64,000 nucleotides of DNA from Allostella vacuolata (GTDB taxonomy: Bacteria > Pseudomonadota > Alphaproteobacteria > ATCC43930 > Allostellaceae). The notes under the pieces are model-generated. The model was not told the origin of the DNA. It saw only the letters and a list, made by a program, of their open reading frames with translations, and did not search any database. This document shows, piece by piece, positions 4,495 through 25,307 of this stretch. The position numbers and the translations under genes were made by a program. Location of the stretch: assembly GCA_006739055.1 (NCBI GenBank), contig AP019702.1, forward strand, positions 5,605,388 through 5,669,387, written 5' to 3'. The first letter of the stretch is position 1. Each line of letters starts with the position of its first letter.

Positions 4495-4525
4495 CTGACC
4501 GGCCGGTCGCTGCCCGGCCGGTCAG
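4495..4525. terminator. Convergent-gene hairpin between secB and dnaQ
   Basis: Perfect 12-bp inverted repeat (CTGACCGGCCGG and its complement) with a 7-nt loop in the convergent gap. It overlaps the dnaQ stop codon. There is no U tract on either strand, so it may be a 3' end stabiliser or a weak bidirectional terminator rather than a classic intrinsic terminator. Confidence 0.5.
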
Positions 4526-5196
4526 CGGAGCCAGATCGCCCCCTTGATCCTGCCGACGAAGGCTGCGTGCGCTGCAGCTTCCGCGGCAGAGGGGGCGTGG
4601 GGTCGGGGCGCGCGGGGCACCCGGACCAGCGCCACCCGACGCTCGACGATGGTCGTCGTCTGGGTGGTCAGTCCGAGACCCTTCTGCCGGCCGCCCGTAA
4701 GTTCCAGATAGACATCGGCCAGCAGCTCCGCATCCAGCCGGGCGCCGTGCTTGACGCGTGCGCTGGTGTCGATCCCGAAGCGCCGGCAGAGCGCATCCAG
4801 GCTGGCGGGTGCCCCCGGAAAGCGCCGCCTGGCCATCGGCAGGGTGTCGATGGCCCGGGCAAGCGGGATGGGACCATGCCCCAGCCGGGCCAGTTCGGCG
4901 TTGACGAAGCGCAGGTCGAACTCCGCATTGTGGATGACCAGCGGATCCTCGCCGATGAACTCGAGGAAGTCGGCACAGATCTCGGCAAACAGCGGGGCCC
5001 CGACCAGATCGGCATCCGAGATGCCGTGGACGGCATAGGCTTCGGGGTCGACCAGCCGCTCCGGATTGACCCGGCTGACGTATTCCACGCCGGTGCGGAC
5101 CCCGTTCTGAAGCTCGAGACAGGCGACCTCGATCAGCCGATGGCCGTCCCGCGGGTCGAGGCCGGTGGTTTCCGTATCGAGGACGATCTCACGCAC
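4522..5196 (-). CDS. dnaQ: DNA polymerase III epsilon subunit, 3'-5' proofreading exonuclease
   Basis: 224 residues from a GTG start. DEDDh exonuclease motifs are visible: Exo I LDTETTGLD at residues 6-14, Exo II HNAEFDLRFVN near residue 100 and Exo III KHGARLDAELLADVY near 160. These are the metal-binding acidic residues plus the catalytic His. The C-terminal part is shorter and basic, where the alpha-binding segment lies. The GTG at 5196 gives the N-terminus MREIVLDTET, the standard one in alphaproteobacteria; the frame stays open further upstream but only in coaE shadow sequence. The start overlaps the 3' end of coaE by 8 bp, indicating translational coupling. Confidence 0.93.
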   Translation of the reverse strand: MREIVLDTETTGLDPRDGHRLIEVACLELQNGVRTGVEYVSRVNPERLVDPEAYAVHGISDADLVGAPLFAEICADFLEFIGEDPLVIHNAEFDLRFVNAELARLGHGPIPLARAIDTLPMARRRFPGAPASLDALCRRFGIDTSARVKHGARLDAELLADVYLELTGGRQKGLGLTTQTTTIVERRVALVRVPRAPRPHAPSAAEAAAHAAFVGRIKGAIWLR

Positions 5197-5824
5197 CGGG
5201 CCTTCTCCGCTGTTGCCGGGACCCGAGCGGCCGGGCATGGCTTCGCGCCTGCCGCAGCACTGCGGCCAGGCACCGGCGGGTGAAACCCCGGCCGAGCCCG
5301 GTCGGCACCACCCAGTCCGCGCGCCGCCGTTTCTCGACGTCCGGGGTCTGTTGCGCAAGGGTGCCGCGAAACTTTTCCTCGGTCATGCCGGGCCGGCGCA
5401 AGACCCGCTGGCGCTGCAGGAACGCTGGAGCGCTGACGACGATGACGTAGTCGCAGCGGCGTTGATGGCCTTTCTCGAACAGGAGCGGAATGTCGAGGAC
5501 GACGAGCGGCGTCCGCCGCCGCCGCTGGCGCGCCAGGAATGACCGCGACATGCGGCGGACCATGGGATGGACGATCACTTCCAGGCGACGCAGCTGGGCC
5601 GGATCGGCGAAGACGATGCGACCCAGGGCGCCGCGATCGACAACGCCGTCGCGCACGACCCCCGGAAACGCGGCGGCGATGGCGGGAACGGCATCGCCGC
5701 CGCGGGCCATGACGCGATGGACCGCCGCATCGGCGTCGTGCACCGGCAGACCCATGCGCCGCAGCATGGCGGCCGCCGTGGACTTGCCCATCCCGATGGA
5801 GCCGGTCAGGCCGATGATGATCAC
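5189..5824 (-). CDS. coaE: Dephospho-CoA kinase
   Basis: 211 residues. The P-loop GLTGSIGMGKST lies at residues 5-16, followed by the HDADAAVHRV motif near 30 and VLDIPLLFEKG near 108, all typical of CoaE. The enzyme phosphorylates the 3'-hydroxyl of dephospho-CoA with ATP, the last step of coenzyme A synthesis. The start is a GTG that overlaps the aroE stop codon in a GTGA junction. The C-terminus beyond the family core (about residue 180 on) is arginine-rich. Part of the ppsR-maf-aroE-coaE-dnaQ operon. Confidence 0.94.
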   Translation of the reverse strand: MIIIGLTGSIGMGKSTAAAMLRRMGLPVHDADAAVHRVMARGGDAVPAIAAAFPGVVRDGVVDRGALGRIVFADPAQLRRLEVIVHPMVRRMSRSFLARQRRRRTPLVVLDIPLLFEKGHQRRCDYVIVVSAPAFLQRQRVLRRPGMTEEKFRGTLAQQTPDVEKRRRADWVVPTGLGRGFTRRCLAAVLRQARSHARPLGSRQQRRRPGA

Positions 5825-6678
5825 GCGGCCGATCCCAGAACGAACTGCCGCAGTTCGGGCGTCACCTCCGGCGACCGGCCGAACCATCGCTCGAAGCCGG
5901 GGCGTGCCTGATGAAGCAGCATGCCGAGGCCGTCCACCGTCGGGTTGCCGCGGGCCGAGGCCGCCGCGAGCAGGGGGGTGACGAGCGGGACGTAGACGAT
6001 GTCGGCCACCAGCGCGGCAGGGGGAAGGACGCCCAGGTCCAGATCCAGGGCGGGCTCGCCCTGCATGCCCTGGGTGGTGCCGTTCACCAGCAGGTTGACG
6101 CCATCCAGCGAACGGGCGCGATCGGCCCAGTCCACCACGGAGATGGCGCCGAAGCCGGCAGCGCCGAGATCCGCGGCGAGCGCCTCCGCCCGTGCCCGTG
6201 TCCGGTTGACGATGCGGATCTCGGGCACGCCCGCGTCCTGGAGCGCGACGACGATGGCCCGGACGGCACCGCCTGCGCCGATGATCGCAGCCGGGCCACC
6301 GGCGGCGCGCCATTCCGGTGCAGCCTCTCGAAGGCTCTCCATGAAGCCGAAGGCGTCGGTATTGTAGCCATCGAGGCTGCCGTCGGGTGCGACGACGACC
6401 GTGTTGACGGCGCCGATGCGGCGCGCCAGCGGATCGATCCGATCCAGGGCGGGCAGGACCAGCTCCTTGTGCGGCACCGTCAAATTGCAGCCGGCAAAGC
6501 CCAGGACCGGCAGGGCCCGGACGGCATCCGCCACCCGCTCGGGCCTTACCGCCATCGGTACATAGGCACCGTCGATCCCGTAGCGGTCGAGCCAGAAGCC
6601 ATGCAGTCGCGGCGAACGCGAATGAGCCACCGGCCAGCCCATCACGCCGGCCACCCGCGCCTTGCCCGTCAGCATCAT
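5821..6678 (-). CDS. aroE: Shikimate dehydrogenase (NADP+)
   Basis: 285 residues. The substrate-binding domain shows GWPVAHSRSPRLHG at residues 14-27 (shikimate-binding serines) and NLTVPHK at 65-71 with the catalytic lysine. The NADP domain has the glycine-rich GAGGAVRAI near residue 137 and NRTRARAE near 158. It reduces 3-dehydroshikimate to shikimate in aromatic amino-acid synthesis. Its start forms an ATGA overlap with maf and its end a GTGA overlap with coaE. Length and motif spacing match AroE well. Confidence 0.95.
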   Translation of the reverse strand: MMLTGKARVAGVMGWPVAHSRSPRLHGFWLDRYGIDGAYVPMAVRPERVADAVRALPVLGFAGCNLTVPHKELVLPALDRIDPLARRIGAVNTVVVAPDGSLDGYNTDAFGFMESLREAAPEWRAAGGPAAIIGAGGAVRAIVVALQDAGVPEIRIVNRTRARAEALAADLGAAGFGAISVVDWADRARSLDGVNLLVNGTTQGMQGEPALDLDLGVLPPAALVADIVYVPLVTPLLAAASARGNPTVDGLGMLLHQARPGFERWFGRSPEVTPELRQFVLGSAA

Positions 6679-7295
6679 CGCAAAACAACTCCATGGTCGC
6701 GCAGGAAGGCCAGCAACGGCAGGAGCGGCAGGCCGAGGATCGAGAAATGGTCGCCTTCGACGCGGGCGAACAGCTGGATACCCAAGCCCTCCAGCCGATA
6801 GGCGCCGACGGACGACAGCAGCTCCGGTCCTTCCAGCGCCAGATACCGATCGAGGAAGAGATCACTGAACGGGCGCATGGTGAGTTGCGGCGCCTCCCGG
6901 TGATGCCAGAGTCGCTGACCGTCGCGTACCACGCAAACGGCGGTGGCCAGGCGGTGAGCCCGGCCCCGCAGTGCCATCAGGTGGCCGCGCGCATGGTCGG
7001 AATCAGCCGGTTTGTCGAACCATGCCGCGCCGCATTCGAGGATCTGATCGGCGCCGATGACCAGCGCTCCCGGGTGCTGTCGGGAGATCCGGTGCGCCTT
7101 GGTCTCGGCCAGGACGTCCGCGGTGATTGCCGCGTCGGCTCCTTCGGCGCGGAGACTGCGCTTGATTTCGTCCTCGTCGACGGCGGCCGGCTGCACGGAG
7201 AACGTCACGCCGGCTGCACCCAGGATCTGTGCGCGAGTCCGGCTTGCCGACGCCAGAATGAGCGACGGGGGATGGTTCGGGCCGAGGGGGGTCAT
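6675..7295 (-). CDS. maf: Maf family nucleotide pyrophosphatase
   Basis: 206 residues. The family signature SASRTR is at residues 16-21, and the conserved GADQILE with the catalytic aspartate is near residue 88. A later segment, SVGAYRLEGLGIQLF, matches the conserved Maf YxxEGxG region. Maf proteins hydrolyse non-canonical or modified nucleoside triphosphates to monophosphates. The ATG at 7295 overlaps the ppsR stop codon (ATGA), which decides the start; the frame stays open upstream inside ppsR. Which Maf subtype (YhdE-like or YceF-like) is not decided here. Confidence 0.92.
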   Translation of the reverse strand: MTPLGPNHPPSLILASASRTRAQILGAAGVTFSVQPAAVDEDEIKRSLRAEGADAAITADVLAETKAHRISRQHPGALVIGADQILECGAAWFDKPADSDHARGHLMALRGRAHRLATAVCVVRDGQRLWHHREAPQLTMRPFSDLFLDRYLALEGPELLSSVGAYRLEGLGIQLFARVEGDHFSILGLPLLPLLAFLRDHGVVLR

Positions 7296-8128
7296 TGCGG
7301 GTCGGCCGCCGATGCCACGCCGTGACGTTTGGCCAGAAGCTGCATGATGGTGGCTGCCGTCTCCTCGATCGATCGACGGGTGACGTCGATCACTGGCCAG
7401 CGGTGCTCCGCGCACATCCGGCGCACGAATGCGATCTCCTGCCGCACTGCCTCCAGGTCCACATAATCCCCACCCTCGCGATCCTGGATCATGCGGAGGC
7501 GCTGGCGACGCACCTGGACCAGCCGTTCGGGATCCTTGGTCAGGCCGACCACGAGCGGTCGTCGGACCGCGAAGAGCTCGGGCGGCGGCGGTACGCCGGG
7601 CACGATGGGCACGTTCGCCGCCTTGATTCCCCGATTGGCGAGATACATGGCGGTCGGTGTCTTGGAACTGCGGGATACGCCAGTCAGGACCACGTCGGCC
7701 GCGTCCAGGTTCCACAGGCCCTGCCCGTCATCATGGACCAGCGCATAGGTCATGGCGTCGATGCGGTGGAAATACTCCGCATCGAGCGCGTGCTGCCGCC
7801 CCGGCTGACCGCGGCTGCGTCGCCCGAGGTAGCTCGCGAATGCGCCGATGATCGGATCGAGGATCGGGATCGTCGGCACCTGCAGCCGGCGACAGGCCCC
7901 CTGCAGAAGTCCGCGCAGGGTCTCGTCCACCAGTGTGAACAGAACGACCCCGGGATTGGCCTCGATGCCGGCGATCACCCGCTCGACCTGGGTCCGGGTG
8001 CGAACCATGGACCAGGTGTGTTCGACGGGATCGACATCCTCGAACTGCGACACGCAGGCGCGGGCGAGGCCGTGCACCGTCTCGCCGGTGGCATCGGAAA
8101 CGAGGTGGAGATGAAAGGTCGTGGTCAC
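7292..8128 (-). CDS. ppsR: Pyruvate,phosphate dikinase / PEP synthase regulatory kinase-phosphorylase (DUF299)
   Basis: 278 residues from a GTG start. The N-terminus VTTTFHLHLVSDATGET is the hallmark of the DUF299/PpsR family, and the P-loop GVSRSSKTPTA is at residues 150-160, followed by YLANRGIKAANVP. Family members use ADP to inactivate and phosphate to reactivate PEP synthase or PPDK by reversible threonine phosphorylation. The GTG at 8128 is preferred over an ATG at 8215 because similarity begins exactly there. It is the first gene of the leftward operon and borders the candidate replication origin. Confidence 0.93.
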   Translation of the reverse strand: MTTTFHLHLVSDATGETVHGLARACVSQFEDVDPVEHTWSMVRTRTQVERVIAGIEANPGVVLFTLVDETLRGLLQGACRRLQVPTIPILDPIIGAFASYLGRRSRGQPGRQHALDAEYFHRIDAMTYALVHDDGQGLWNLDAADVVLTGVSRSSKTPTAMYLANRGIKAANVPIVPGVPPPPELFAVRRPLVVGLTKDPERLVQVRRQRLRMIQDREGGDYVDLEAVRQEIAFVRRMCAEHRWPVIDVTRRSIEETAATIMQLLAKRHGVASAADPQ

Positions 8129-8505
8129 GGAATCGAGCCTATCCGGTTTCGGGCGCGCTGTGGACAATCCTGCGCATTCCCAGGGCCGGGTCAGACGACC
8201 CCCGTTGCCGGCCATCTGCTCCCCGATCCGCGATGCCGGGGACAGAATTGCCGACCGGCCGCTGAAGGTCTGATAGCTGTAGGTCGATCCCCGTTGTTCA
8301 GGCTTTGCCCGGGATTCACAGGGGCGGTCGTGTCGAAGCTTCCAGAGCTGGAGGTTGGCTTATCGACAGAATCGGGCGGGCCATCCTCCAGCTGTGGGTA
8401 ACTTGATGACGGTTCGACGTCATCGGTAATCCCCGGCATCCACCGCGTCACTACTACATCTACAGTTCTAAGAGATTCGTTCTAGAAGGTAGTAGACGGC
8501 AGGCA
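8129..8505. other. Candidate chromosomal replication origin (oriC)
   Basis: A 377-bp non-coding gap between divergent ppsR and hemE. DnaA-box-like 9-mers are TGTGGACAA (8159-8167, complement TTGTCCACA), TTATCGACA (8360-8368) and TGTGGGTAA (8393-8401, complement TTACCCACA); each is one base from TTATCCACA. An inverted repeat AGCTGGAGG / CCTCCAGCT (8346-8354, 8385-8393) flanks the second box. Another, GATGACG / CGTCATC, is at 8405-8424. A relatively AT-rich end (8451-8495) is framed by CTACTAC / GTAGTAG and could be the unwinding element. Four GANTC sites (8130, 8313, 8369, 8474) fit CcrM-type methylation. oriC next to hemE is known in Caulobacter, Rickettsia and rhizobia. Confidence 0.7.
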
Positions 8506-9549
8506 ATGGGGATGAAACCGATGACCAAGAAGCTGCGGAACGTGCTGACGGGGGCGATCGAGGCCACACCGCCGGTCTGGTTCATGCGGCAGGCGGGACG
8601 ATACCTTCCGGAGTACCGCCGGCTCCGGACCGAGGCCGGCAGCTTCATGCAGCTTTGCCTCGACCCACGGAAGGCGGCCGACGTCACGCTGCAACCCGTC
8701 AGCCGCTTTGGAATGGATGGCGCGATCCTGTTCGCCGACATCCTCATCGTGCCCCACGGCCTTGGAACGGAGGTGTCCTTCCGGGAGGGCGAGGGGCCGA
8801 GCCTGCCGCCGCTCCGGCCCGGGGACGCGCTGCCGGAACTCGATCCAGAAGCATTCTCTGCCCGCACCGCGCCGATCATGGAGACGGTGCGGATCGTCGC
8901 CGCGGAGATGCCCGCCGGAACCACGCTGATCGGGTTTGCCGGAGCGCCCTGGACGGTCGCGACCTATATGGTCGAGGGCGGCTCGAGCCGGGACTTCACG
9001 CAGACGAAGCGGTGGGCCTACGCCCGGCCGGCCGAGTTCCAGTCGCTGATCGACCGGATCACCGATGCGACCATCCTCTACCTGCGAGCCCAGGCCGATG
9101 CCGGGGCCGAAGCGTTGCAGCTGTTCGATTCCTGGGCCGGTGTCCTGCCGGCGGACGCCTTCGGCCGTTGGAGCATCGAGCCCGCTGCGCGGATCGTCTC
9201 GGCATTGCGGAAGACGCATCCGGGGATACCGCTCATCGGCTTTCCCCGGGGCGCTGGGCCTTCGATCGTGGACTATGCCAGACGGACCGGTGTCGATGCC
9301 GTAAGCCTCGACACATCGATTCCGCTGGCCTGGGCCAGAGGGGCCATGCCGGACCTGTGCCTGCAAGGGAACCTCGACCCCCAATGGCTCGTGGTCGGCG
9401 GGGACGGGCTCGACGACCAGGTGGCACGCATCGGTGAGGCCATGGCCGGCGCTCCCTTCATCTTCAATCTCGGCCATGGAATCGTTCCGGAAACGCCGCC
9501 GGACCATGTCGGACGCGCGGTAGCGGCGATTCGACGGCTGGGGGTGTAA
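8506..9549 (+). CDS. hemE: Uroporphyrinogen III decarboxylase
   Basis: 347 residues. The active-site segment PPVWFMRQAGRYLPEYR is at residues 22-38, and further family motifs are GFAGAPWTVATYM near 146 and the late INLGHGI-type sequence FNLGHGIVPETPPD near 324. HemE removes the four acetate carboxyls of uroporphyrinogen III to give coproporphyrinogen III in heme synthesis. Three in-frame ATGs (8506, 8512, 8521) are close together; AGG lies about 8 nt before 8512, so the true start may be 8512. It leads the hemE-hemH-hemJ run and is the first gene to the right of the candidate oriC. Confidence 0.95.
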   Translation: MGMKPMTKKLRNVLTGAIEATPPVWFMRQAGRYLPEYRRLRTEAGSFMQLCLDPRKAADVTLQPVSRFGMDGAILFADILIVPHGLGTEVSFREGEGPSLPPLRPGDALPELDPEAFSARTAPIMETVRIVAAEMPAGTTLIGFAGAPWTVATYMVEGGSSRDFTQTKRWAYARPAEFQSLIDRITDATILYLRAQADAGAEALQLFDSWAGVLPADAFGRWSIEPAARIVSALRKTHPGIPLIGFPRGAGPSIVDYARRTGVDAVSLDTSIPLAWARGAMPDLCLQGNLDPQWLVVGGDGLDDQVARIGEAMAGAPFIFNLGHGIVPETPPDHVGRAVAAIRRLGV

Positions 9550-9554
9550 AGGTC

Positions 9555-10598
9555 ATGGCCCGGATCGCCGTCGTTCTCTTCAACCTCGGGGGCCCCGACC
9601 GGCCCGAAGCCGTCCAGCCGTTCCTGGTCAATCTCTTCAGTGATCCGGCGATCATCCGCGTGCCGGCGGTCCTGCGCTGGATCCTGGCCCGGGTGATCGC
9701 CCGGCGCCGTGCGCCGATCGCCCGGGCCAACTACGCGCAGATCGGTGGCGGGTCGCCGTTGCTGCCGAATACCGAGGCGCAGGCGGCAGCCCTCAGCGCC
9801 GCTCTGGATGACCTCGGTGTCGTGCGAACCTTCATCGCGATGCGCTATTGGCACCCGCTGTCCGACGAGACGGCGAAGGCGGTGGCGGAGTTCAAGCCCG
9901 ACCGGATCGTCCTCCTGCCGCTCTACCCGCAGTTCTCGACGACGACGACCGCGTCTTCGATCGCGGATTGGCGCAAGGCGGCTGCCCGGGCGGGCATCCA
10001 TGCGCCGTCGGTCGCCGTGTGCTGCTATCCCGCGGAGGCGGGACTGGTCGCGGCGGAATCGGAGCTGGTGCGGAACTCGCTTGCGGAAGCGAAGCGGACC
10101 GGGCCGGCCCGCGTCCTCTTCTCCGCCCATGGGCTTCCCGAGAAGATCGTGGCAGCGGGCGATCCCTACCAGTGGCAGGTGGAGCAGACATCGGCTGCCG
10201 TCGCGGCCCGGGCCGGCCTGACCGACGGCGAATGGATGGTCTGCTACCAGAGCCGCGTCGGGCCCCTGAAGTGGATCGGCCCATCGACCGAGGAGGAGAT
10301 CGCGCGAGCAGGCCAGGACGGGGTGTCGCTGGTGGTGGTCCCGATCGCCTTCGTGTCCGAGCATTCCGAAACCCTGGTAGAGCTCGATATCGAGTACCGG
10401 GAACTGGCAGCCAAGGCCGGCGTTCCGGCCTATGTCCGCACGCCCACCGTCGGCGTCCGGCCGGACTTCATCCACGGCCTGGCCGAGCTCGTGCGGGGAA
10501 CGGCGGGCAGCCCTGCCGGATGGGCGCCGCCCGGTGGCCATCGCATCTGCCCGGCGGCGCACGGCGCCTGTCCGATCGCCGCAGGAGGCATGTCGTGA
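9555..10598 (+). CDS. hemH: Ferrochelatase
   Basis: 347 residues. Ferrochelatase motifs are the N-terminal VLFNLGGPDRPE (residues 7-18), MRYWHPL near 97, the metal-binding histidine in LFSAHGLPEKI near 190, and YQSRVGPLKWIGPSTE near 231, with the conserved FVSEHSETLVELDIEY near 260. The enzyme inserts Fe2+ into protoporphyrin IX to make heme at the inner membrane. Five bases separate it from hemE, and its stop codon overlaps the hemJ GTG start, so the three genes form one transcription unit. Confidence 0.95.
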   Translation: MARIAVVLFNLGGPDRPEAVQPFLVNLFSDPAIIRVPAVLRWILARVIARRRAPIARANYAQIGGGSPLLPNTEAQAAALSAALDDLGVVRTFIAMRYWHPLSDETAKAVAEFKPDRIVLLPLYPQFSTTTTASSIADWRKAAARAGIHAPSVAVCCYPAEAGLVAAESELVRNSLAEAKRTGPARVLFSAHGLPEKIVAAGDPYQWQVEQTSAAVAARAGLTDGEWMVCYQSRVGPLKWIGPSTEEEIARAGQDGVSLVVVPIAFVSEHSETLVELDIEYRELAAKAGVPAYVRTPTVGVRPDFIHGLAELVRGTAGSPAGWAPPGGHRICPAAHGACPIAAGGMS

Positions 10599-11044
10599 GC
10601 GGGTTCCTGACGGCGGCCTATCCCTGGACCAAGGCTCTGCATATCATCGCCGTCATCGCCTGGATGGCCGGTCTGTTCTACCTGCCGCGCCTGTTCGTCT
10701 ACCACAGCGGGGTCGAGCCGGGTTCGGCACAGTCGGAGACCTTCAAGGTGATGGAACGTCGCCTGCTGCGGGCGATCATGAACCCCGCGATGATCGCAGC
10801 CTACATCTTCGGCCTGGCGGTGCTGTCCACACCGGGAATCGTCGACTGGGACGCCGGCTGGATCTACATGAAGCTGGTTCTGGTGGCGATCCTGTCCTGG
10901 CACCACCACCGGCAGGCGTCCTGGATGAAGGATTTTGCCGCGGATCGAAACCGCCAACCGGCACGGTTCTACCGGATGCAGAACGAAGTCCCGACGCTGC
11001 TGATGATCGGGATCGTTATCCTCGTCGTCGTGAGACCCTTCTGA
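10595..11044 (+). CDS. hemJ: Protoporphyrinogen IX oxidase HemJ
   Basis: 149 residues from a GTG start that overlaps the hemH stop (GTGA), preceded by AGGAGG at about 10582. The protein has four predicted membrane helices. The family signature is near the N-terminus: KALHIIAVIAWMAGLFYLPR (residues 11-30), then the VYHSG motif. A downstream LVAILSWHHHRQ and FYRMQNEVPT match HemJ/UPF0093. HemJ oxidises protoporphyrinogen IX to protoporphyrin IX, the step before HemH, in bacteria that lack HemG and HemY. The conserved histidines fit the proposed heme ligands. Placement directly after hemH strongly supports the call. Confidence 0.92.
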   Translation: MSGFLTAAYPWTKALHIIAVIAWMAGLFYLPRLFVYHSGVEPGSAQSETFKVMERRLLRAIMNPAMIAAYIFGLAVLSTPGIVDWDAGWIYMKLVLVAILSWHHHRQASWMKDFAADRNRQPARFYRMQNEVPTLLMIGIVILVVVRPF

Positions 11045-11105
11045 GGCATGGGTTTTCTGAGGCAAGGGATTGTTTTCGTTTGACTCGTTTCCCATGTCTC
11101 GGTAA

Positions 11106-11534
11106 CTAGGTCACCGACTCATAATGACGTAGCCAAATTCTGGTGGCTGCGAGCTTGACGAGGGCGAGGTAGTTTTCGGGGTGCTTCTCGAAGCGGGTGG
11201 CTACGGCGCGGAAGTGCTTGAGCTTGCTGAAGAAGCGCTCGACGAGGTTGCGGTAGCGGTAGAGGAAGGGACTGAAGGCGACAGTGGCCTTGCGGTTGCG
11301 CTTGGGCTTGACGCAGGCCCAGGCGCCTCGATCGGCCAGCGCCTGGCGCAGGGCATTGGAATCGTAGGCGCGGTCGGCCAGCAGGATCTGCCCCTCTTTC
11401 ATTCCGTCCAGCATGTCGGCCGCACTGCGGCCGTCATGCGCCTGCCCCGGCGTCAGCTTCACGGCGACGGGCCGCCCCTCGGCATCGACCAAGGCATGGA
11501 TCTTCGTCGTCAGCCCACCTCGCGAGCGCCCCAT
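11106..11534 (-). CDS. IS5-family transposase, C-terminal part (orfB)
   Basis: 142 residues. It contains the second DDE aspartate in LLADRAYDSNALR (near residue 52) and the catalytic glutamate in RNLVERFFSKLKHFRAVAT (near 95-112), with the usual R and K spaced after it. It is read in the -1 frame relative to orfA and overlaps it by 25 bp, and its true N-terminus is probably joined to orfA by ribosomal frameshifting at a run of five C (minus strand, 11540-11544). The ATG at 11534 gives MGRSRGGLTTKIHA, a common family sequence but not a likely independent start. Its TAG stop lies in the target duplication. Confidence 0.85.
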   Translation of the reverse strand: MGRSRGGLTTKIHALVDAEGRPVAVKLTPGQAHDGRSAADMLDGMKEGQILLADRAYDSNALRQALADRGAWACVKPKRNRKATVAFSPFLYRYRNLVERFFSKLKHFRAVATRFEKHPENYLALVKLAATRIWLRHYESVT

Positions 11535-11973
11535 GCATCGGGGGTCAGGAACGTCCCCGCAGGTGGCTTCCGGCCCCCCTTTTTACCGTTCGCACCGTGC
11601 TGGTGGACGCGGATCGAAGAGCTGTCGATCATCTGGAGGTCCCCGTCGTAGGCCGCCGAAACCGCCGCGAAGATGCGATCCCAGACCCCCAGCTTGCGCC
11701 ACCGGACGAAGCGGTTGTAGCAGGTCGTCGCCGGCCCGTAGCGCTCCGGGATGTCCGCCCACGGCGAACCCGTCCGCAGCCGCCAGTAGATGCCGTTCAG
11801 CACCCGGCGGTCGTCCACGCGCGGCACTCCGCGCGGCTTGTTCGGCAACAGCAGCTCAATGATCGACCACTCGAAGTCCGTGATCTCGTACCGGCGAGGC
11901 TTCATCCATACTCTCCCTCGCCAGAGGGAATCACGACAGCCCTCAAACCGCTACCCGTTTATGAGTGCGTGAC
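11110..11973 (-). mobile_element. Complete IS5-family insertion sequence (IS427-like, two overlapping ORFs)
   Basis: 864 bp bounded by imperfect 16-bp inverted repeats: left GTCACCGACTCATAAT at 11110, right (complement) GTCACGCACTCATAAA ending at 11973, differing at 3 positions. A CTAG duplication flanks it at 11106-11109 and 11974-11977, as expected of the target duplication. The transposase is split into two overlapping frames, typical of IS5-family elements that use -1 frameshifting. The element sits between hemJ and rho and breaks no recognisable gene. Confidence 0.9.
11510..11905 (-). CDS. IS5-family transposase, N-terminal part (orfA)
   Basis: 131 residues. The N-terminal DUF4096-type segment is clear (ITDFEWSIIELLLPNK, then RRVLNGIYWRLRTGSPWADI and RFVRWRKLGVWDRIF), and the first catalytic aspartate is in MIDSSSIRVHQHGA near residue 92. 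After about residue 120 the frame leaves the family sequence; a -1 shift at ACCCCCG (minus strand) restores DPRCMGRSRGG in orfB. No start or stop mutation is seen, so the element appears intact and possibly active. Confidence 0.88.
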   Translation of the reverse strand: MKPRRYEITDFEWSIIELLLPNKPRGVPRVDDRRVLNGIYWRLRTGSPWADIPERYGPATTCYNRFVRWRKLGVWDRIFAAVSAAYDGDLQMIDSSSIRVHQHGANGKKGGRKPPAGTFLTPDAWGAREVG

Positions 11974-12137
11974 CTAGCCGGCAGCGTTGCTCAACCGGCG
12001 CCTCTTCACCCCCCTACCTCCCATCGAATGAGCGGCCGGCCAACGGTCGCAGCCCGGGCGGCGATCCAGTCCGTCAGGTGCGCATATCGGGCAGGAAAAC
12101 GGGGTTCCTTTCCTTCATTCCCGTCCAGGGTTCCCGG

Positions 12138-13394
<1,257 letters not shown>

Positions 13395-19391: not shown

Positions 19392-19754
19392 ATGTCCTCC
19401 ACCATCCGGCCGGCCGACCCGGCGCCGTTCTATCGCTGCCATGTCTTCGCCTGCACCAACGAGCGGCCGGAGGGGCATCCGCGCGGATCGTGCAAGGCCA
19501 GGGGCGGCGAACGCCTGCGCAATTACATGAAGGCCCGCGCCAAGGAGCTGGGCCTGGCCGACACCCGGATCAACTCCGCCGGTTGCCTGGACCGGTGCGA
19601 GCTCGGCCCGACCATCGTGATCTATCCCGAAGGGGTCTGGTATACGGCGCACGACAGCGCCGACATCGACGAGATCCTGCAGGTGCATCTGGTCGAGGGG
19701 GGGCGTGTCGAGCGGCTGATGCTGACGACCGAACAGACGGAACCACGACCCTGA
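19392..19754 (+). CDS. Thioredoxin-like [2Fe-2S] ferredoxin family protein
   Basis: 120 residues. Five cysteines are visible (C16, C21, C34, C65, C69); C21, C34, C65 and C69 fit the CX12C-X30-CX3C ligand pattern of thioredoxin-fold 2Fe-2S ferredoxins. The sequence RCHVFACTNERP at 15-26 and AGCLDRCELGPTIVIYPEG near 63-81 is characteristic. It probably carries electrons in an unknown reaction. The ATG at 19392 follows CGAGAGAGAACC. Its last codon and TGA overlap the CTG that appears to start mnmE, so the two are linked. Confidence 0.88.
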   Translation: MSSTIRPADPAPFYRCHVFACTNERPEGHPRGSCKARGGERLRNYMKARAKELGLADTRINSAGCLDRCELGPTIVIYPEGVWYTAHDSADIDEILQVHLVEGGRVERLMLTTEQTEPRP

Positions 19755-21073
19755 TCGATCACCGATCCCGCGAGACGATATTTGCGCTTACGACAGGTGG
19801 TGGGCGCGCCGGCGTCGCCATGGTGCGGCTGTCCGGCCCGGCCGCCGCCACCATCGTAAGCGGGATTACAATGCGGCCGCTGCCTCCGCCAAGGCGCGCG
19901 GTGCGGCGGCGCTTCGGCCGGGACCCGGTCGCAGACGACGGAATCCTGATCTGGTTTCCCGGCCCGCGGAGCTTCACCGGCGAGGATGTGGCGGAGCTGC
20001 ATATCCACGGGGGACGGGCCGTCTATCTGGCCGTCGCCGGCCTCCTCACCCAAGCCGGTGCCCGCATGGCGGATCCGGGGGAGTTTACCCGCCGGGCGTT
20101 CGAGAACGGCAAGCTGGACCTGACCCAGGCGGAAGGCATTGCGGATCTGGTCGCAGCCGAGACCGAGGGCCAGCGTCGCTCGGCCCTGCGACAGATGGAT
20201 GGCGAACTCGGCCGCCTCTATGAGGGCTGGCGTCTTCGCCTCATCGACCTGATTGCGCAGGCAGAGGCCGCCATCGACTTTCCTGACGAGGATCTGCCGG
20301 CCGGGCTGCTCGATCACGTGGTCGCCGACGCAGGCGGTCTGCAAGCCGAACTGTCCGGGCATCTCGACGACGGCCGGCGCGGCGAGCGGTTGCGCGACGG
20401 GTTCCACGTGGCGATCCTGGGCGCGCCCAACGCCGGCAAGTCGAGCCTGCTGAATGCGCTGGTGGGCCGGGCCGCAGCGATCGTCCACCCCGCGGCGGGG
20501 ACGACCCGGGATGTCATCGAGGTGGCGGTCGACCTGGCTGGCTGGCCGGTGGTGTTCTCCGACACGGCCGGCCTGCGCGCGGCGCTCGACCCGGTGGAGG
20601 CGGAGGGGGTGCGCCGGGCCCGGGAACGAGCCGGGCTGGCCGATCTCAAGCTGCTGGTGGTCGACGGCGCGGCGGGTGCTCCGGCCGACGAGCTGCTGGG
20701 CCTGGCGGACGAGAAGGCGCTCCTGGTGCTGAACAAGATCGACCTCGGCGAGTGCACAGAGGCGCACGACCTCGGGCCGGCCATCCGGGTTTCGGCCAGC
20801 ACCGGCCATGGTCTGACCGCACTCGCCGATGCCATCGCGGCCAAGGCTGCGGAGGCGATGGACGGGGCGTCCCTGACCCCGACCCGCCTCAGGCATCGCG
20901 AGGCGGTCGAAAGCTGCATCCGGCATCTGGCGTCAATGGATCCGGGAACGCCACCCGAGCTGATGGTCGAGGATCTGCGGCTGGCGGCCCGCGCCCTCGG
21001 GCGGGCCGTCGGCCGCATCGACGTCGAGGACGTGCTGGACGCGGTCTTCCGCCAGTTCTGCATCGGCAAGTGA
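19751..21073 (+). CDS. mnmE: tRNA modification GTPase MnmE, apparently CTG-initiated
   Basis: 440 residues from the proposed start. The N-terminal tetrahydrofolate-binding domain starts RETIFALTTGGGRAGVAMVR. The G domain has G1 GAPNAGKS at 224-231, G3 DTAG at 271-274 and NKID near 335, and the protein ends with the catalytic CIGK. With MnmG it installs the 5-carboxymethylaminomethyl group on wobble uridine-34. No ATG, GTG or TTG lies in the stretch before the conserved N-terminus; the CTG at 19751 overlaps the TGA of the upstream gene in the same manner as the many ATGA/GTGA junctions here. Upstream extension to GTG codons would enter ferredoxin-gene shadow sequence. Confidence 0.9.
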   Translation: MIDHRSRETIFALTTGGGRAGVAMVRLSGPAAATIVSGITMRPLPPPRRAVRRRFGRDPVADDGILIWFPGPRSFTGEDVAELHIHGGRAVYLAVAGLLTQAGARMADPGEFTRRAFENGKLDLTQAEGIADLVAAETEGQRRSALRQMDGELGRLYEGWRLRLIDLIAQAEAAIDFPDEDLPAGLLDHVVADAGGLQAELSGHLDDGRRGERLRDGFHVAILGAPNAGKSSLLNALVGRAAAIVHPAAGTTRDVIEVAVDLAGWPVVFSDTAGLRAALDPVEAEGVRRARERAGLADLKLLVVDGAAGAPADELLGLADEKALLVLNKIDLGECTEAHDLGPAIRVSASTGHGLTALADAIAAKAAEAMDGASLTPTRLRHREAVESCIRHLASMDPGTPPELMVEDLRLAARALGRAVGRIDVEDVLDAVFRQFCIGK

Positions 21074-21089
21074 TGTTTCACGTGAAACA
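21074..21089. promoter_or_regulatory. parS centromere site 1
   Basis: Perfect 16-bp palindrome TGTTTCACGTGAAACA, identical to the conserved ParB-binding parS consensus. It lies right after the mnmE stop in the 86-bp gap before mnmG, about 2.6 kb upstream of parA. Confidence 0.95.
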
Positions 21090-21159
21090 CCCTCAAGCCA
21101 TTCGCGGCTGATACCCTTTTGCTTGGCGGACGGCAGCCTGATCCATAGAGTGCCGCCGC

Positions 21160-23034
21160 ATGGGACATTCCGGATCAGCATACGACGTCGTCGTCATCGG
21201 CGGCGGCCATGCCGGCTGCGAGGCCGCAGCAGCGGCAGCACGCATGGGCGCCCGCACCCTGTTGTTGACCCACCGGGTGGAATCGATCGGCGAGATGTCG
21301 TGCAACCCCGCGATCGGGGGGCTGGCCAAGGGGCATCTCGTCCGGGAGATCGATGCGCTCGACGGGGTAATGGCGCGCGCGATCGATCGCGCCGGCATCC
21401 AGTTCCGAATGCTGAACCGGAGCAAGGGCCCGGCTGTCCGCGGCCCGCGGGCCCAGGCCGACCGGCGGCTGTACCGCGAGGCGATGCAGGGCCTGCTGGC
21501 GGAGCAGCCCGATCTGGTCGTGCGGGGAGACGCTGCCGAAGGCCTGATCCTGGATGGTGACGGCCGGGCAGCGGGCGTGGTGACCGCAAGCGGGTCCGAG
21601 ATCCGGGCCGGGTCGATCGTCATCACGACCGGGACCTTCCTGCGCGGGATGATCCATATCGGCGAGCGCCAGATTCCGGCCGGGCGAGTCGGGGAGGCGC
21701 CGTCGATGGGTCTCGCGCGGACGCTGGAGCGGGCCGGGTTCGCCCTCGGCAGGCTGAAGACCGGGACGCCACCGCGGCTCGACGGCCGCACCATCGACTG
21801 GAGCGGGCTGGAAGTCCAGGCGGGCGACGATCCGCCGATCCCGTTCTCGTTCCTTACCGACCGGATCACGACCCGACAGGTGCCCTGCCACGTCACCTGG
21901 ACGACGCCGCTCGCCCATGCGGCGATCCGCGACAACCTGCACCGGGCGCCCCTCTATTCCGGCCAGATCGAGGGGGTGGGCCCCCGCTATTGCCCATCGA
22001 TCGAGGACAAGGTGGTGCGTTTTGCCGACCGGGACCGGCACCAGATCTTCCTGGAACCGGAAGGGCTCGACGACGACACGATCTATCCCAACGGGATTTC
22101 GACCTCGCTTCCGGAGGACGTGCAGGCCGCAATGATCGCCGCCATCCCGGGGCTGGAGCGGGCGCGGATCCTGCGGCCCGGCTACGCGATCGAGTACGAC
22201 TATGTGGACCCGCGGGAACTGCGTCCGACGCTGGAGACACGCCGAATTCCGGGGCTGTACCTGGCGGGTCAGATCAACGGCACCACTGGCTACGAGGAAG
22301 CGGCCGCACAGGGACTGATCGCTGGCGTGAACGCCGCCGCCGCCGTCTCCGGGCAGGCGCCGATGGTGCTCGATCGGGCCGACGCCTATATCGGTGTGCT
22401 CATCGATGACCTCGTGACGCGCGGGACGACCGAACCCTATCGCATGTTCACATCCCGCGCCGAGTATCGCCTGGTGCTGCGTGCGGACAACGCGGACCAG
22501 CGCCTGACGCCGATCGGCATGAAGGCGGGCTGCGTCGAATCGGAGCGGCAGCGCCGCTTCTCGGCGAAGATCGAGACGCTGGCCGCCGCTCGGACTCTGG
22601 CGGGCCGCCTGACCGCGACGCCGCCGCAGCTCGCCCGGGCGGGATTGGCGGTGAACCAGGACGGCGTGTCGCGGTCGGCCCTGGATCTGCTCCGCTATCC
22701 GGACATCAGCTTCGCTAAGGTTGTCGGGATCTGGCCGGAGTTGGCGGGCCTGTCGGCAGAGATTGTGGAACAGCTGGAGATCGACGCCCGCTATGCCGGA
22801 TACGTGCAGCGGCAAGAGGCGGACATTCGGTCGTTCCGCCGCGACGAAGCGTTGCGGATTCCGGCGGACCTGGACTATGGCGCACTCGGCGGCCTGTCGA
22901 CCGAAGTGCGCGAGAAGCTGGACCGGGTCCGTCCCGAGACGCTGGGCCAGGCGGGACGGGTGGCCGGCGTGACCCCGGCTGCGTTGATCGCCCTGCTGAA
23001 GCATGTGCGGCGCGAGGATCGCCGGTCGGCCTGA
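21160..23034 (+). CDS. mnmG: tRNA uridine 5-carboxymethylaminomethyl modification enzyme MnmG (GidA)
   Basis: 624 residues. The FAD-binding Rossmann signature [12 protein letters not shown] is at residues 12-23, and family motifs are [16 protein letters not shown] near 47, [11 protein letters not shown] near 200 and [17 protein letters not shown] near 368. With MnmE it forms the cmnm5U34 modification in tRNA. The ATG at 21160 follows an open gap with parS. Its TGA overlaps the rsmG ATG by one base, so the rsmG ribosome likely reinitiates. Length is typical. Confidence 0.96.
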
Positions 23035-23654
23035 TGGATGCACGGCTGACCCGAGAGGCCTTCGCCGCTGCGGCGCCCCATGTTTCACGTGAAACACTGG
23101 GGCGGCTGCAGATCTACGTCGATCAGCTGGAACGATGGAACGGCCGGATCAATCTCGTCTCCGCCACCACGATGGCCGATCCCTGGCGCCGCCATGTGTG
23201 GGACAGCGCGCAGCTCTGGCCACTGGTGCAGGAACCGGCCGGCTCCATGGCCGACCTCGGCTCCGGCGCCGGTCTGCCGGGGCTGGTCCTGGCGATCCTG
23301 GGCCGCCGGGACGTGGTTCTGATCGAAGCGGACCAGCGCAAGTGTGCCTTCCTGCGGGAAGCTGCACGGGCAACCGGAACCACCGTGACGATCCTGCAGG
23401 GCCGCATGGAGGCCTTGTCGCCCATCGGGGCAAGCATCGTGACCGCCCGGGCCTGCGCGCCCCTGGAACGCCTCCTGGGCCTCGCGGAACGGCATCTGGG
23501 GCCGGCCGGAATTGCCGTGTTCCTGAAGGGCCGCTCGGCCGATGCGGAAATCGCCGAGGCACGGCGCTCCTGGCGGTTCGACGCCGTCATGCAACCGAGC
23601 CATACTGACGCCGAAGCCTGCATCCTGCGCCTGGAGAACATTGCCCGTGCCTGA
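23034..23654 (+). CDS. rsmG: 16S rRNA (guanine(527)-N7)-methyltransferase RsmG (GidB)
   Basis: 206 residues. The SAM-binding motif I is MADLGSGAGLPGLVLAIL near residue 72-89, followed by the acidic VVLIEADQRKCAFL motif. The N-terminus contains LERWNGRINLVSATT, the family signature. RsmG methylates G527 in the 530 loop of 16S rRNA. The segment encoding HVSRETL near residue 16 contains a perfect parS palindrome, so this codon stretch is doubly constrained. It overlaps mnmG by one base and parA by 8 bp. Confidence 0.94.
   Translation: MDARLTREAFAAAAPHVSRETLGRLQIYVDQLERWNGRINLVSATTMADPWRRHVWDSAQLWPLVQEPAGSMADLGSGAGLPGLVLAILGRRDVVLIEADQRKCAFLREAARATGTTVTILQGRMEALSPIGASIVTARACAPLERLLGLAERHLGPAGIAVFLKGRSADAEIAEARRSWRFDAVMQPSHTDAEACILRLENIARA
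23081..23096. promoter_or_regulatory. parS centromere site 2 (inside rsmG)
   Basis: Second perfect TGTTTCACGTGAAACA, read in rsmG as part of codons for HVSRET. It is 2007 bp from parS site 1 and about 550 bp upstream of parA. The flanking CCCCA and TGGGG nearly extend the palindrome. Confidence 0.95.
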
Positions 23655-24447
23655 CGTGGTAGGCGCCCCCGTGCGCCGGGTCATCGCCGTTGCCAACCAG
23701 AAGGGCGGGGTCGGCAAGACCACGACCGTGATCAACCTTGCCACCGCGCTGGCGGCGGCGGGCCACAAGGTCCTGGTGATCGACTTCGATCCGCAGGGCA
23801 ACGCCTCCACCGGCCTGGGCGTGCCGCCCGCGGAGCGCGGGCGCAGCGTCTACGGGGTTCTGATGGGAGAGCTTGGCCTGGACGAGGCGACCATGCCGAC
23901 CCAGGTGCCGAACCTGCAGCTGGTGCCGGCCACCCGGGACCTGGTCGGTGCCGAAGTGGAACTGCTCGATGGCGATCGGCGGGAGGCACGCCTGCGCGAC
24001 GCCTTGTTCGACGGCGCGGCCGACGTGGAGTTCGTCCTGCTCGACTGCCCGCCATCGCTCGGCATGCTGACGGTGAATGCGCTCGTCGCGGCCGACGAGG
24101 TCCTGGTCCCGTTGCAGTGCGAGTTCCTGGCGCTCGAGGGCCTGAGCCACCTGCTGCACACGGTCGAGCGCATCCGCCGCAGCCTCAATCCCCAGCTCAC
24201 GATCCGCGGCATCGTCCTGACCATGTTCGACAAGCGCAACAACCTGTCGGAAGTGGTCGCCGAGGATGTCCGCGGCCATCTGGGCAGCACGGTGTTCGAC
24301 ACGGTGATTCCACGCAACGTGCGGATTTCCGAGGCACCCTCGCATGGCCTGCCGGTGCTGCTCTACGACTGGCGATCGACGGGTGCCCAGGCCTACATCC
24401 AGCTCGCCCGGGAGCTGCTGGGACGCTACGGAAAGGAAGCCGCATGA
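23647..24447 (+). CDS. parA: Chromosome partitioning ATPase ParA (Soj-type)
   Basis: 266 residues from a GTG. The deviant Walker A motif KGGVGKTT is at 19-26 with both signature lysines (K19, K24), Walker A' VLVIDFDPQGNAS near 49-61 and Walker B VLLDCPPSLG near 125. ParA forms ATP-dependent DNA-bound dimers and works with ParB-parS to move sister origins apart. The GTG at 23647 overlaps rsmG by 8 bp; another GTG at 23656 is possible. Its TGA overlaps the parB ATG. Confidence 0.95.
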   Translation: MPDVVGAPVRRVIAVANQKGGVGKTTTVINLATALAAAGHKVLVIDFDPQGNASTGLGVPPAERGRSVYGVLMGELGLDEATMPTQVPNLQLVPATRDLVGAEVELLDGDRREARLRDALFDGAADVEFVLLDCPPSLGMLTVNALVAADEVLVPLQCEFLALEGLSHLLHTVERIRRSLNPQLTIRGIVLTMFDKRNNLSEVVAEDVRGHLGSTVFDTVIPRNVRISEAPSHGLPVLLYDWRSTGAQAYIQLARELLGRYGKEAA

Positions 24448-25307
24448 GCCGCGAACCCGCCAAGCGCAAACCCCTCGGCCGCGGCCTGTCCGCCCTGCTG
24501 GGCGAGGCGCCCGCGCCGGCCCTCGAGCGGGCACCGGAGCATGGCGGCCTGCGCACCATACCCATCGAGGCCCTGCGGCCCGGCCGCTTCCAGCCGCGGC
24601 GCCAGTTCGACGAGGAGGCCATGCGCGCCCTTGTCGAATCGATCCGGGAGAAGGGCATCCTGCAACCGATCCTGGTGCGCCGGCACGGCGACGAGGGATG
24701 GGAGATCGTCGCCGGCGAACGGCGGTGGCGGGCGGCGCAGGCGGCCGGGATCCACGTCGTGCCGGTCCTGGTGCAGGACCTGGACGACCGCGCCGCGCTG
24801 GAGATCGCGCTGGTGGAGAACGTCCAGCGCCAGGATCTGACGGCGCTGGAAGAGGCCGAGGGCTATCAGCGCCTGATCGACGAGTTTGGTCACCGCCAGG
24901 AGGATCTGGCACAGGCCGTCGGCAAGAGCCGAAGCCACATCGCCAACACCATCCGGCTCCTGCAGTTGCCGATTGATGTGCGACGCCTGCTGCAGGACGG
25001 CGCCCTGACGGCGGGCCATGCCCGAGCCCTCCTCGGTGCGGAGCAGGCGGGCGAATTGGCGCGGCGGGTGGTCGATCTGGGCCTTAACGTCCGCCAGACG
25101 GAAAAACTGGTGGCCGCCGCCAAGGCGGCCACCGAAAAGGCACCGCCGCCGGAACTGGATGCCGACACGCGGGCGCTGGAGCGCACGCTCGAGCAACAGC
25201 TCGGCCTGCGCGTCAATATCGAGCATGGCGGGCGGGGCGGCCGCCTCGTCCTGCACTATCGAACCCTCGACCAGCTCGACGACGTGCTGAAGCGCCTGGG
25301 AAACTGA
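24444..25307 (+). CDS. parB: Chromosome partitioning protein ParB (parS-binding CTPase)
   Basis: 287 residues. The N-terminus has the ParA-interacting LGRGLSALLG at 11-20. The ParB/Srx CTP-binding fold follows, with GERRWRAA at 91-98, ENVQRQDL near 119 and a central helix-turn-helix for parS recognition (FGHRQEDLAQAVGKSRSHIA near 138-157). The C-terminal dimerisation domain ends in LGN. ATGA overlap with parA proves an operon. Two parS sites lie within 3.4 kb upstream. Confidence 0.96.
   Translation: MSREPAKRKPLGRGLSALLGEAPAPALERAPEHGGLRTIPIEALRPGRFQPRRQFDEEAMRALVESIREKGILQPILVRRHGDEGWEIVAGERRWRAAQAAGIHVVPVLVQDLDDRAALEIALVENVQRQDLTALEEAEGYQRLIDEFGHRQEDLAQAVGKSRSHIANTIRLLQLPIDVRRLLQDGALTAGHARALLGAEQAGELARRVVDLGLNVRQTEKLVAAAKAATEKAPPPELDADTRALERTLEQQLGLRVNIEHGGRGGRLVLHYRTLDQLDDVLKRLGN

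Follow-up and report, generated by a model that had tools for sequence, protein, structure and literature searches.

Where on the chromosome of Allostella vacuolata does replication begin? The question is raised by a gap between two divergent genes, ppsR and hemE, located in the window, i.e., the whole 64,000-nucleotide stretch analyzed here, which covers positions 5,605,388-5,669,387 of a one-contig genome (G000) of 5,834,761 bases. We conclude that the gap is very probably the chromosomal replication origin, oriC. As an origin, it is of the hemE/COG1806 alphaproteobacterial type, that is, a known kind in a known place. The placement puts the origin 221 kb from dnaA, where the record starts, and matters for the definition of replichores, for gene dosage, and for growth rates computed from coverage. 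The gap and its flanks are as follows, in window coordinates.

7292-8128, minus strand: ppsR (COG1806/DUF299), the divergent flank; model NF003742, 334 bits against a cut-off of 225, scored on the ORF 7292-8215.
8129-8511, unstranded: ppsR-hemE intergenic region, very probably oriC on the basis of gene starts, box cluster, and skew turn.
8512-9549, plus strand: hemE (uroporphyrinogen decarboxylase); model TIGR01464, 375 bits against a cut-off of 303, scored on the ORF 8506-9549.

Comparison within the genus indicates that ppsR likely starts at the minus-strand GTG at 8126-8128. The hemE ORF is also open from 8506; position 8512 is the likelier start because, by eye, it is aligned with the start codon in three other genus members. 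The gap between the hemE and COG1806 genes is non-coding and extends from 8129 to 8505, probably to 8511. A first-pass annotation of this DNA had described a non-coding gap with divergent flanks, and that description holds: both genes score above their model cut-offs and lie on opposite strands. The GC content is 60% in the gap versus 71% in the 1.586 Mb (27% of the genome) scanned. In the wider neighborhood (blocks 4522-13394 and 19490-25307), dnaQ, coaE, a Maf-like gene, and ppsR lie on the left side, and hemE, hemH, rho, mnmE, gidA, gidB, parA, and parB on the right.

DnaA boxes were defined as matches to TTATCCACA, with limits of one and two mismatches. The ppsR-hemE gap has no perfect box and three boxes with one mismatch each.

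8159-8167, minus strand: DnaA box TTGTCCACA (one mismatch), identical in three of four genus members; G001 has CTGTCCACA (two mismatches).
8360-8368, plus strand: DnaA box TTATCGACA (one mismatch); TTATCGACT in G001 and G002, absent in G003.
8393-8401, minus strand: DnaA box TTACCCACA (one mismatch), from the motif scan and genus alignment.

The position at 8393 holds a one-mismatch box in all four genus members, the other three reading TTGTCCACA, TGATCCACA, and ATATCCACA. The three near-consensus boxes of the first-pass annotation are thus all single-mismatch sites, and none of 2000 dinucleotide shuffles of the gap reaches three (shuffle mean, 0.04). The clustering is local. For sites with at most two mismatches, a window-wide excess was rejected (46 observed versus 46 expected), and three of the window's four one-mismatch boxes fall inside the gap. 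Nowhere else in the 1.586 Mb scanned (27% of the genome) do three one-mismatch boxes fall within 377 bp. No further triplet within 377 bp is found among 100 of the 175 genome-wide matches, i.e., all 5 perfect ones and the one-mismatch ones up to 3.52 Mb, so that the cluster scan covers all of the genome except about 1.54 Mb. Matches with at most one mismatch are few, 175 genome-wide as opposed to 254 for a reversed control pattern; therefore, only about 0.01 chance triplets are expected genome-wide, and the Poisson probability of a triplet in a 377-bp gap, given 175 sites, is 2e-7. That is, the box cluster stands above both chance and the other regions covered. A separate site far from the origin, at 1508089-1508217 of the contig, has a perfect and a one-mismatch box within 130 bp; it is possibly a titration or control site.

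The position of the gap on the chromosome was assessed by GC skew, sampled as 60 stretches of 20 kb, with 5.446-5.835 Mb covered in full. The skew is positive in 32 of the 33 sampled stretches from position 1 to 3.13 Mb, mixed in five stretches at 3.209-3.618 Mb (three negative, two positive), and negative in all 18 from 3.695 to 5.369 Mb. The four stretches from 5.446 Mb on have skews of +0.003, -0.016, +0.016, and +0.003. These signs place the turn between 5.369 and 5.640 Mb, the region containing the gap. Raw cumulative skew bottoms out at 5,576,280, 37 kb left of the gap, on a flat floor reaching to about 5,611,000. Being too flat, raw cumulative skew was rejected as a precise locator, and a correction for gene direction was therefore applied, in which the mean gene-direction effect is removed using gene calls from a crude ORF filter. 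After correction, the minimum is at 5,609,944, 3.8 kb from the gap center. In the congener G002, the raw minimum lies 39 kb left, and the corrected minimum is at +3.8 kb from the gap. In the congener G001, the lowest point within the 400 kb examined is 161-164 kb to the left of the gap (raw 164, corrected about 161); the region concerned, 5,420,000-5,584,000, is collinear apart from short paralogous matches, and the skew curve is noisy. A skew shift at the site is thus found in two of three one-contig genomes (G000 and G002, within 4 kb), with G001 displaced. The first-pass annotation had held that a skew switch elsewhere would speak against an origin here; in the samples, the sign changes in the gap's own region, with a corrected minimum 3.8 kb off and G001 deviating.

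The raw minima, which lie left of the gap by 37 kb in G000 and by 39 kb in G002, are what one would expect if the gap were a shared ppsR/hemE promoter region with regulatory DnaA boxes and the true origin coincided with the raw skew minimum, as much as about 40 kb away on that side. Divergent genes do require promoters, and the conserved block described below extends to hemE. However, no second cluster of three boxes in 377 bp occurs in 5.446-5.835 Mb, the gene-direction correction puts the minimum less than 4 kb from the gap in both genomes, and the experimentally identified origin of Caulobacter, Cori, lies in the same gene pair, between hemE and COG1806, as reported in PMC1914354. We consider this promoter-only reading very unlikely.

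Could the origin instead lie beside dnaA, as in many bacteria, the hemE gap being an ancestral relic? The record begins at dnaA (positions 137-1507); starting a record at dnaA is a common annotation convention and no evidence for an origin. The gene lies 221 kb clockwise of the gap, well within the positive-skew arm, with one one-mismatch DnaA box within 3 kb and no parS nearby. The single dif-like site, at 3,138,395, lies where the broad maximum of the sampled skew begins. It divides the chromosome into arms of 2.48 : 3.36 Mb from the gap and of 3.14 : 2.70 Mb from dnaA, and is therefore slightly more nearly opposite dnaA. That dif is not opposite the gap, leaving uneven arms, weighs mildly against the gap as origin. 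An origin at dnaA was rejected on skew, boxes, and parS, and we give it very little probability.

The parS sites and the segregation genes lie to the right of the gap, in a mnmE-gidA-gidB-parA-parB cluster.

21074-21089, unstranded: parS, perfect 16-mer, from the genome-wide motif search.
23081-23096, unstranded: parS, perfect 16-mer, from the same search.
23542-24447, plus strand: parA (ORF); PF13614, with ParA-type NCBIfam models below their cut-offs.
24117-25307, plus strand: parB (ORF); TIGR00180, 189 bits against a cut-off of 58.

The true start of parB is probably further inside its ORF, because the ORF overlaps parA. The two parS sites are 12.6 and 14.6 kb from the gap, much as first noted (about 13 and 15 kb), and a search of the genome allowing up to two mismatches yields no others.

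The gap was then compared among relatives. A set of 110 hemE loci was assembled from the best 80 of 592 (named records) and 30 from the organism's own order, in which 41 of 43 genomes gave matches. Sphingomonadales are heavily represented and some species may occur more than once, so that the counts below are not independent. In 97 of the 110, ppsR is the divergent neighbor, separated from hemE by 232-527 bp. The 13 loci left out, with no adjacent divergent ppsR, include four with just 102-426 bases of sequence available upstream of hemE (L036, L137, L145, and L150) and nine with about 3 kb available, among them L076, where ppsR is about 2.4 kb away. The 97 gaps average 2.04 boxes versus 0.066 in shuffles; 84 have at least one, and 13 have no one-mismatch box. 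The genus members have 3 (window), 1 (G001), 2 (G003), and 2 (G002). The 13 boxless gaps and the low counts in the three congeners speak against an origin, as do the lack of a perfect box in the gap and of CtrA and IHF consensus sites. In 95 of the 97 gaps, the hemE-side third contains the least stable 50-mer. In the alignment of the four genus members, a conserved block extends from 8406 to 8515: of the columns in each 30-bp segment, 10-22 are invariant for starts at 8406-8486, 1-7 in mid-gap (starts 8166-8396), and 11-19 on the ppsR side (starts 8086-8156, partly coding and including the box at 8159).

The conserved block holds the following features.

8427-8444, plus strand: two adjoining weak box-like 9-mers, TAATCCCCG and GCATCCACC (three mismatches each), in the conserved block of the genus alignment.
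8448-8497, unstranded: candidate DNA unwinding element (DUE), the least stable 50 bp of the window in a nearest-neighbor stability scan.
8451-8462, plus strand: trinucleotide-rich, DnaA-trio-like element CTA CTA CAT CTA, reading towards hemE.

The AT-richer end that had been noted is real: 65% of the 40 bp at 8455 are AT, a level reached by 0.035% of background 40-mers, and it overlaps the window's least stable 50-mer. The gap is thus both richer in AT than the genome on average and unstable over part of its length. The least stable stretch is flanked by CTACTAC (8451-8457) and GTAGTAG (8489-8495), a perfect inverted pair of 7 bp; the GTAGTAG arm lies in the block GATTCGTTCTAGAAGGTAGTAG just before hemE, which is nearly invariant in the genus. 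This pair may represent a promoter or regulator site of hemE that overlaps the unwinding element.

The motif scan finds no DnaA site with up to two mismatches between 8401 and 8507. The 9-mers at 8427-8444 are candidate DUE-proximal DnaA sites. Against (CTA)5, the gap scores at best 11/15, a value reached by 0.3% of shuffles. Among the 97 gaps, 26 have a match of at least 11/15 on the hemE-ward strand, versus 2 on the other strand and 1.5% of shuffles; 71 of the 97 are without an 11/15 run. Three of the four genus members score 11 or 12, and G002 only 10/15 (9.6% of shuffles). Among the 26 gaps whose CTA run is clear, 13 have a plus-strand box with at most two mismatches just upstream of it (5.4% in shuffled controls), at spacers of 0 to 18 bp. 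By eye, many gaps share one arrangement next to hemE: TAATCCCC and/or ATCCACAG come first, followed by a short GC-rich segment, a CTACTACAACTACC-type run, and TTTATAAT-like DNA.

In Bacillus subtilis, DnaA starts from double-stranded boxes, loads onto the neighboring single strand of 3'-GAT-5' triplets, and opens it by stretching, as described in PMC6669920 and PMC8287927. The DnaA-trio search pattern given in PMC8287927 asks for a run of three or more consecutive 3'-NAN-5' triplets and, no more than 16 bp from it, a box with at most two mismatches. Here, 3'-GAT-5' triplets do occur on the expected strand and side, beside the weak duplex. The 9-mers, with three mismatches each, fall outside the box rule of PMC8287927, and the third triplet of CTA CTA CAT CTA breaks the rule of three successive triplets. 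With two defining rules failing, a strict basal unwinding system was rejected.

Boxes alone cannot distinguish an origin from a DnaA-titration (datA-like) site. In this gap, however, the boxes are accompanied by the window's weakest duplex, a conserved position, the skew turn, and nearby parS, and it is extremely improbable that the cluster is a titration site and no origin.

Two further features noted in the gap contribute less to its identification as oriC. The first is a set of GANTC (CcrM) sites found by motif scan.

8130-8134, unstranded: GANTC site.
8313-8317, unstranded: GANTC site.
8369-8373, unstranded: GANTC site adjoining the box at 8360.
8474-8478, unstranded: GANTC site inside the candidate unwinding element, kept in all four genus members.

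The four sites are present as the first-pass annotation had them, but the argument is weaker than it was made to be. In the scanned stretches, the background is 0.43 per 383 bp, and at least four sites occur in 0.2% of windows and in 1.5% of GC-matched windows. Shuffles of the gap itself average 2.2 sites and reach four in 17% of cases, which is not significant, and GANTC enrichment was discounted as independent evidence. GANTC is rare in the scanned stretches of the genome (1.14 per kb versus 2.66 expected from base composition), a rarity shared with other genomes that have CcrM. The second feature is an inverted repeat with 18-nt arms at 8342-8359 and 8380-8397, 89% complementary. The arms are real, as had been claimed, but by eye they are not kept in the genus alignment, and the repeat was set aside as evidence on that ground.

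How might such an origin be controlled? No CtrA site (TTAA-N7-TTAA, strict or loose) and no IHF site (WATCAN5WTR) is found in the gap or in any of the four genus members' gaps, and control of this origin by CtrA or IHF was rejected, as no sites occur across the genus. The CtrA protein model NF045991 has no match above its cut-off in G000, the best scoring 166 of 350 bits; the two best matches score better with metal-response and PmrA-type models, also below cut-offs. At an E value of 1e-60, CtrA is found in 0 of 4 genus genomes (three of them one-contig assemblies), in 34 (31 above the cut-off) of the order's 39 other genomes, several of which are incomplete, and in 43 (36 above the cut-off) of 58 genomes drawn from the class, G000 included. 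G000 does encode GcrA and a CcrM-type methylase (NF050803, 623 bits, under the cut-off of 830; its RAMA domain is above cut-off). This suggests a genus whose origin control would have to run without CtrA. Loss of CtrA need not have altered that control, because order-mates, mostly with CtrA, show no excess of CtrA sites either: in 23 order-mate gaps, CtrA and IHF sites are at shuffle level. The 70 other loci have 0.56 loose CtrA sites per gap versus 0.29 in shuffles, and 0.13 IHF sites versus 0.09. In two Rhodospirillales species, ctrA loss without negative effect on growth or viability is reported in PMC8116508. Among the papers listed by our literature searches on hemE-adjacent origins, none concerned this genus, and the search on Rhodospirillales listed none.

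A sequence of events can be proposed over the features observed here, i.e., the skew-turn region, the box cluster, the weak duplex, the conservation, and parS. By analogy with other species, DnaA would bind the box sites at 8159, 8360, and 8393, and the weak tandem sites at 8427-8444 would also be bound, probably cooperatively. Given the filament polarity known elsewhere, the DnaA filament would extend rightwards onto the strand opposite the CTA-rich run from 8451. It would then open the weak duplex at 8448-8497, just upstream of hemE, where the helicases would be loaded. ParAB, acting through the two parS about 13 and 15 kb to the right, would move new origin copies, again as in other species. 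CcrM methylation of GANTC, including the site within the unwinding element, may mark replicated origins, an effect likewise taken from other species. CtrA seemingly is no participant.

The ppsR-hemE origin is best understood next to three known systems. Like the basal unwinding system of Bacillus subtilis and others, it has a box-like pair, a short GC-rich spacer, a CTA-rich run of the right polarity, and a weak duplex. It differs in its three-mismatch proximal boxes and broken third triplet, which do not fit the pattern as published in PMC8287927. We classify it neither with this system nor with the CtrA-controlled origins because the tested features of both fail. The comparison of gaps suggests that the unwinding element is common to many alphaproteobacterial origins. 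Tentatively, we suggest that this may be a hemE-type origin, in a lineage that has lost CtrA entirely but retains CcrM and GcrA, opened by a degenerate trinucleotide element of C-N-A repeats read from weak tandem boxes, an arrangement common to many alphaproteobacterial origins and outside the published DnaA-trio pattern; this is a possibility we hold as less than probable.

The second comparison is with Rickettsia, Wolbachia, and relatives. Genomes of this group are AT-rich, whereas here the GC content is 71% in the scanned stretches and 60% in the gap. Their origins, placed in silico according to PMC1914354, likewise border on hemE, span gaps of some hundreds of bp, and have DnaA sites, and CtrA sites are likewise few or absent in some of them. 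For Wolbachia and several relatives, the same source gives a border gene other than COG1806 and reports IHF sites, in contrast to the absence of an IHF site from this gap.

The third is Cori of Caulobacter crescentus, which lies between hemE and COG1806 (CC0001). The gap in the window has the same flanking genes, DnaA boxes, and an AT-richer stretch, and G000 also encodes GcrA and a CcrM-type methylase that scores under its model cut-off. Cori is described in PMC1914354 as having five DnaA, five CtrA, and one IHF site, whereas here there are three one-mismatch boxes and no CtrA or IHF site. The precedent for an oriC beside hemE that the first-pass annotation had invoked is borne out for Caulobacter and Rickettsia by PMC1914354, and the arrangement published there agrees with what is conserved across the loci compared, namely the gene pair, the boxes, and a weak duplex on the hemE side.
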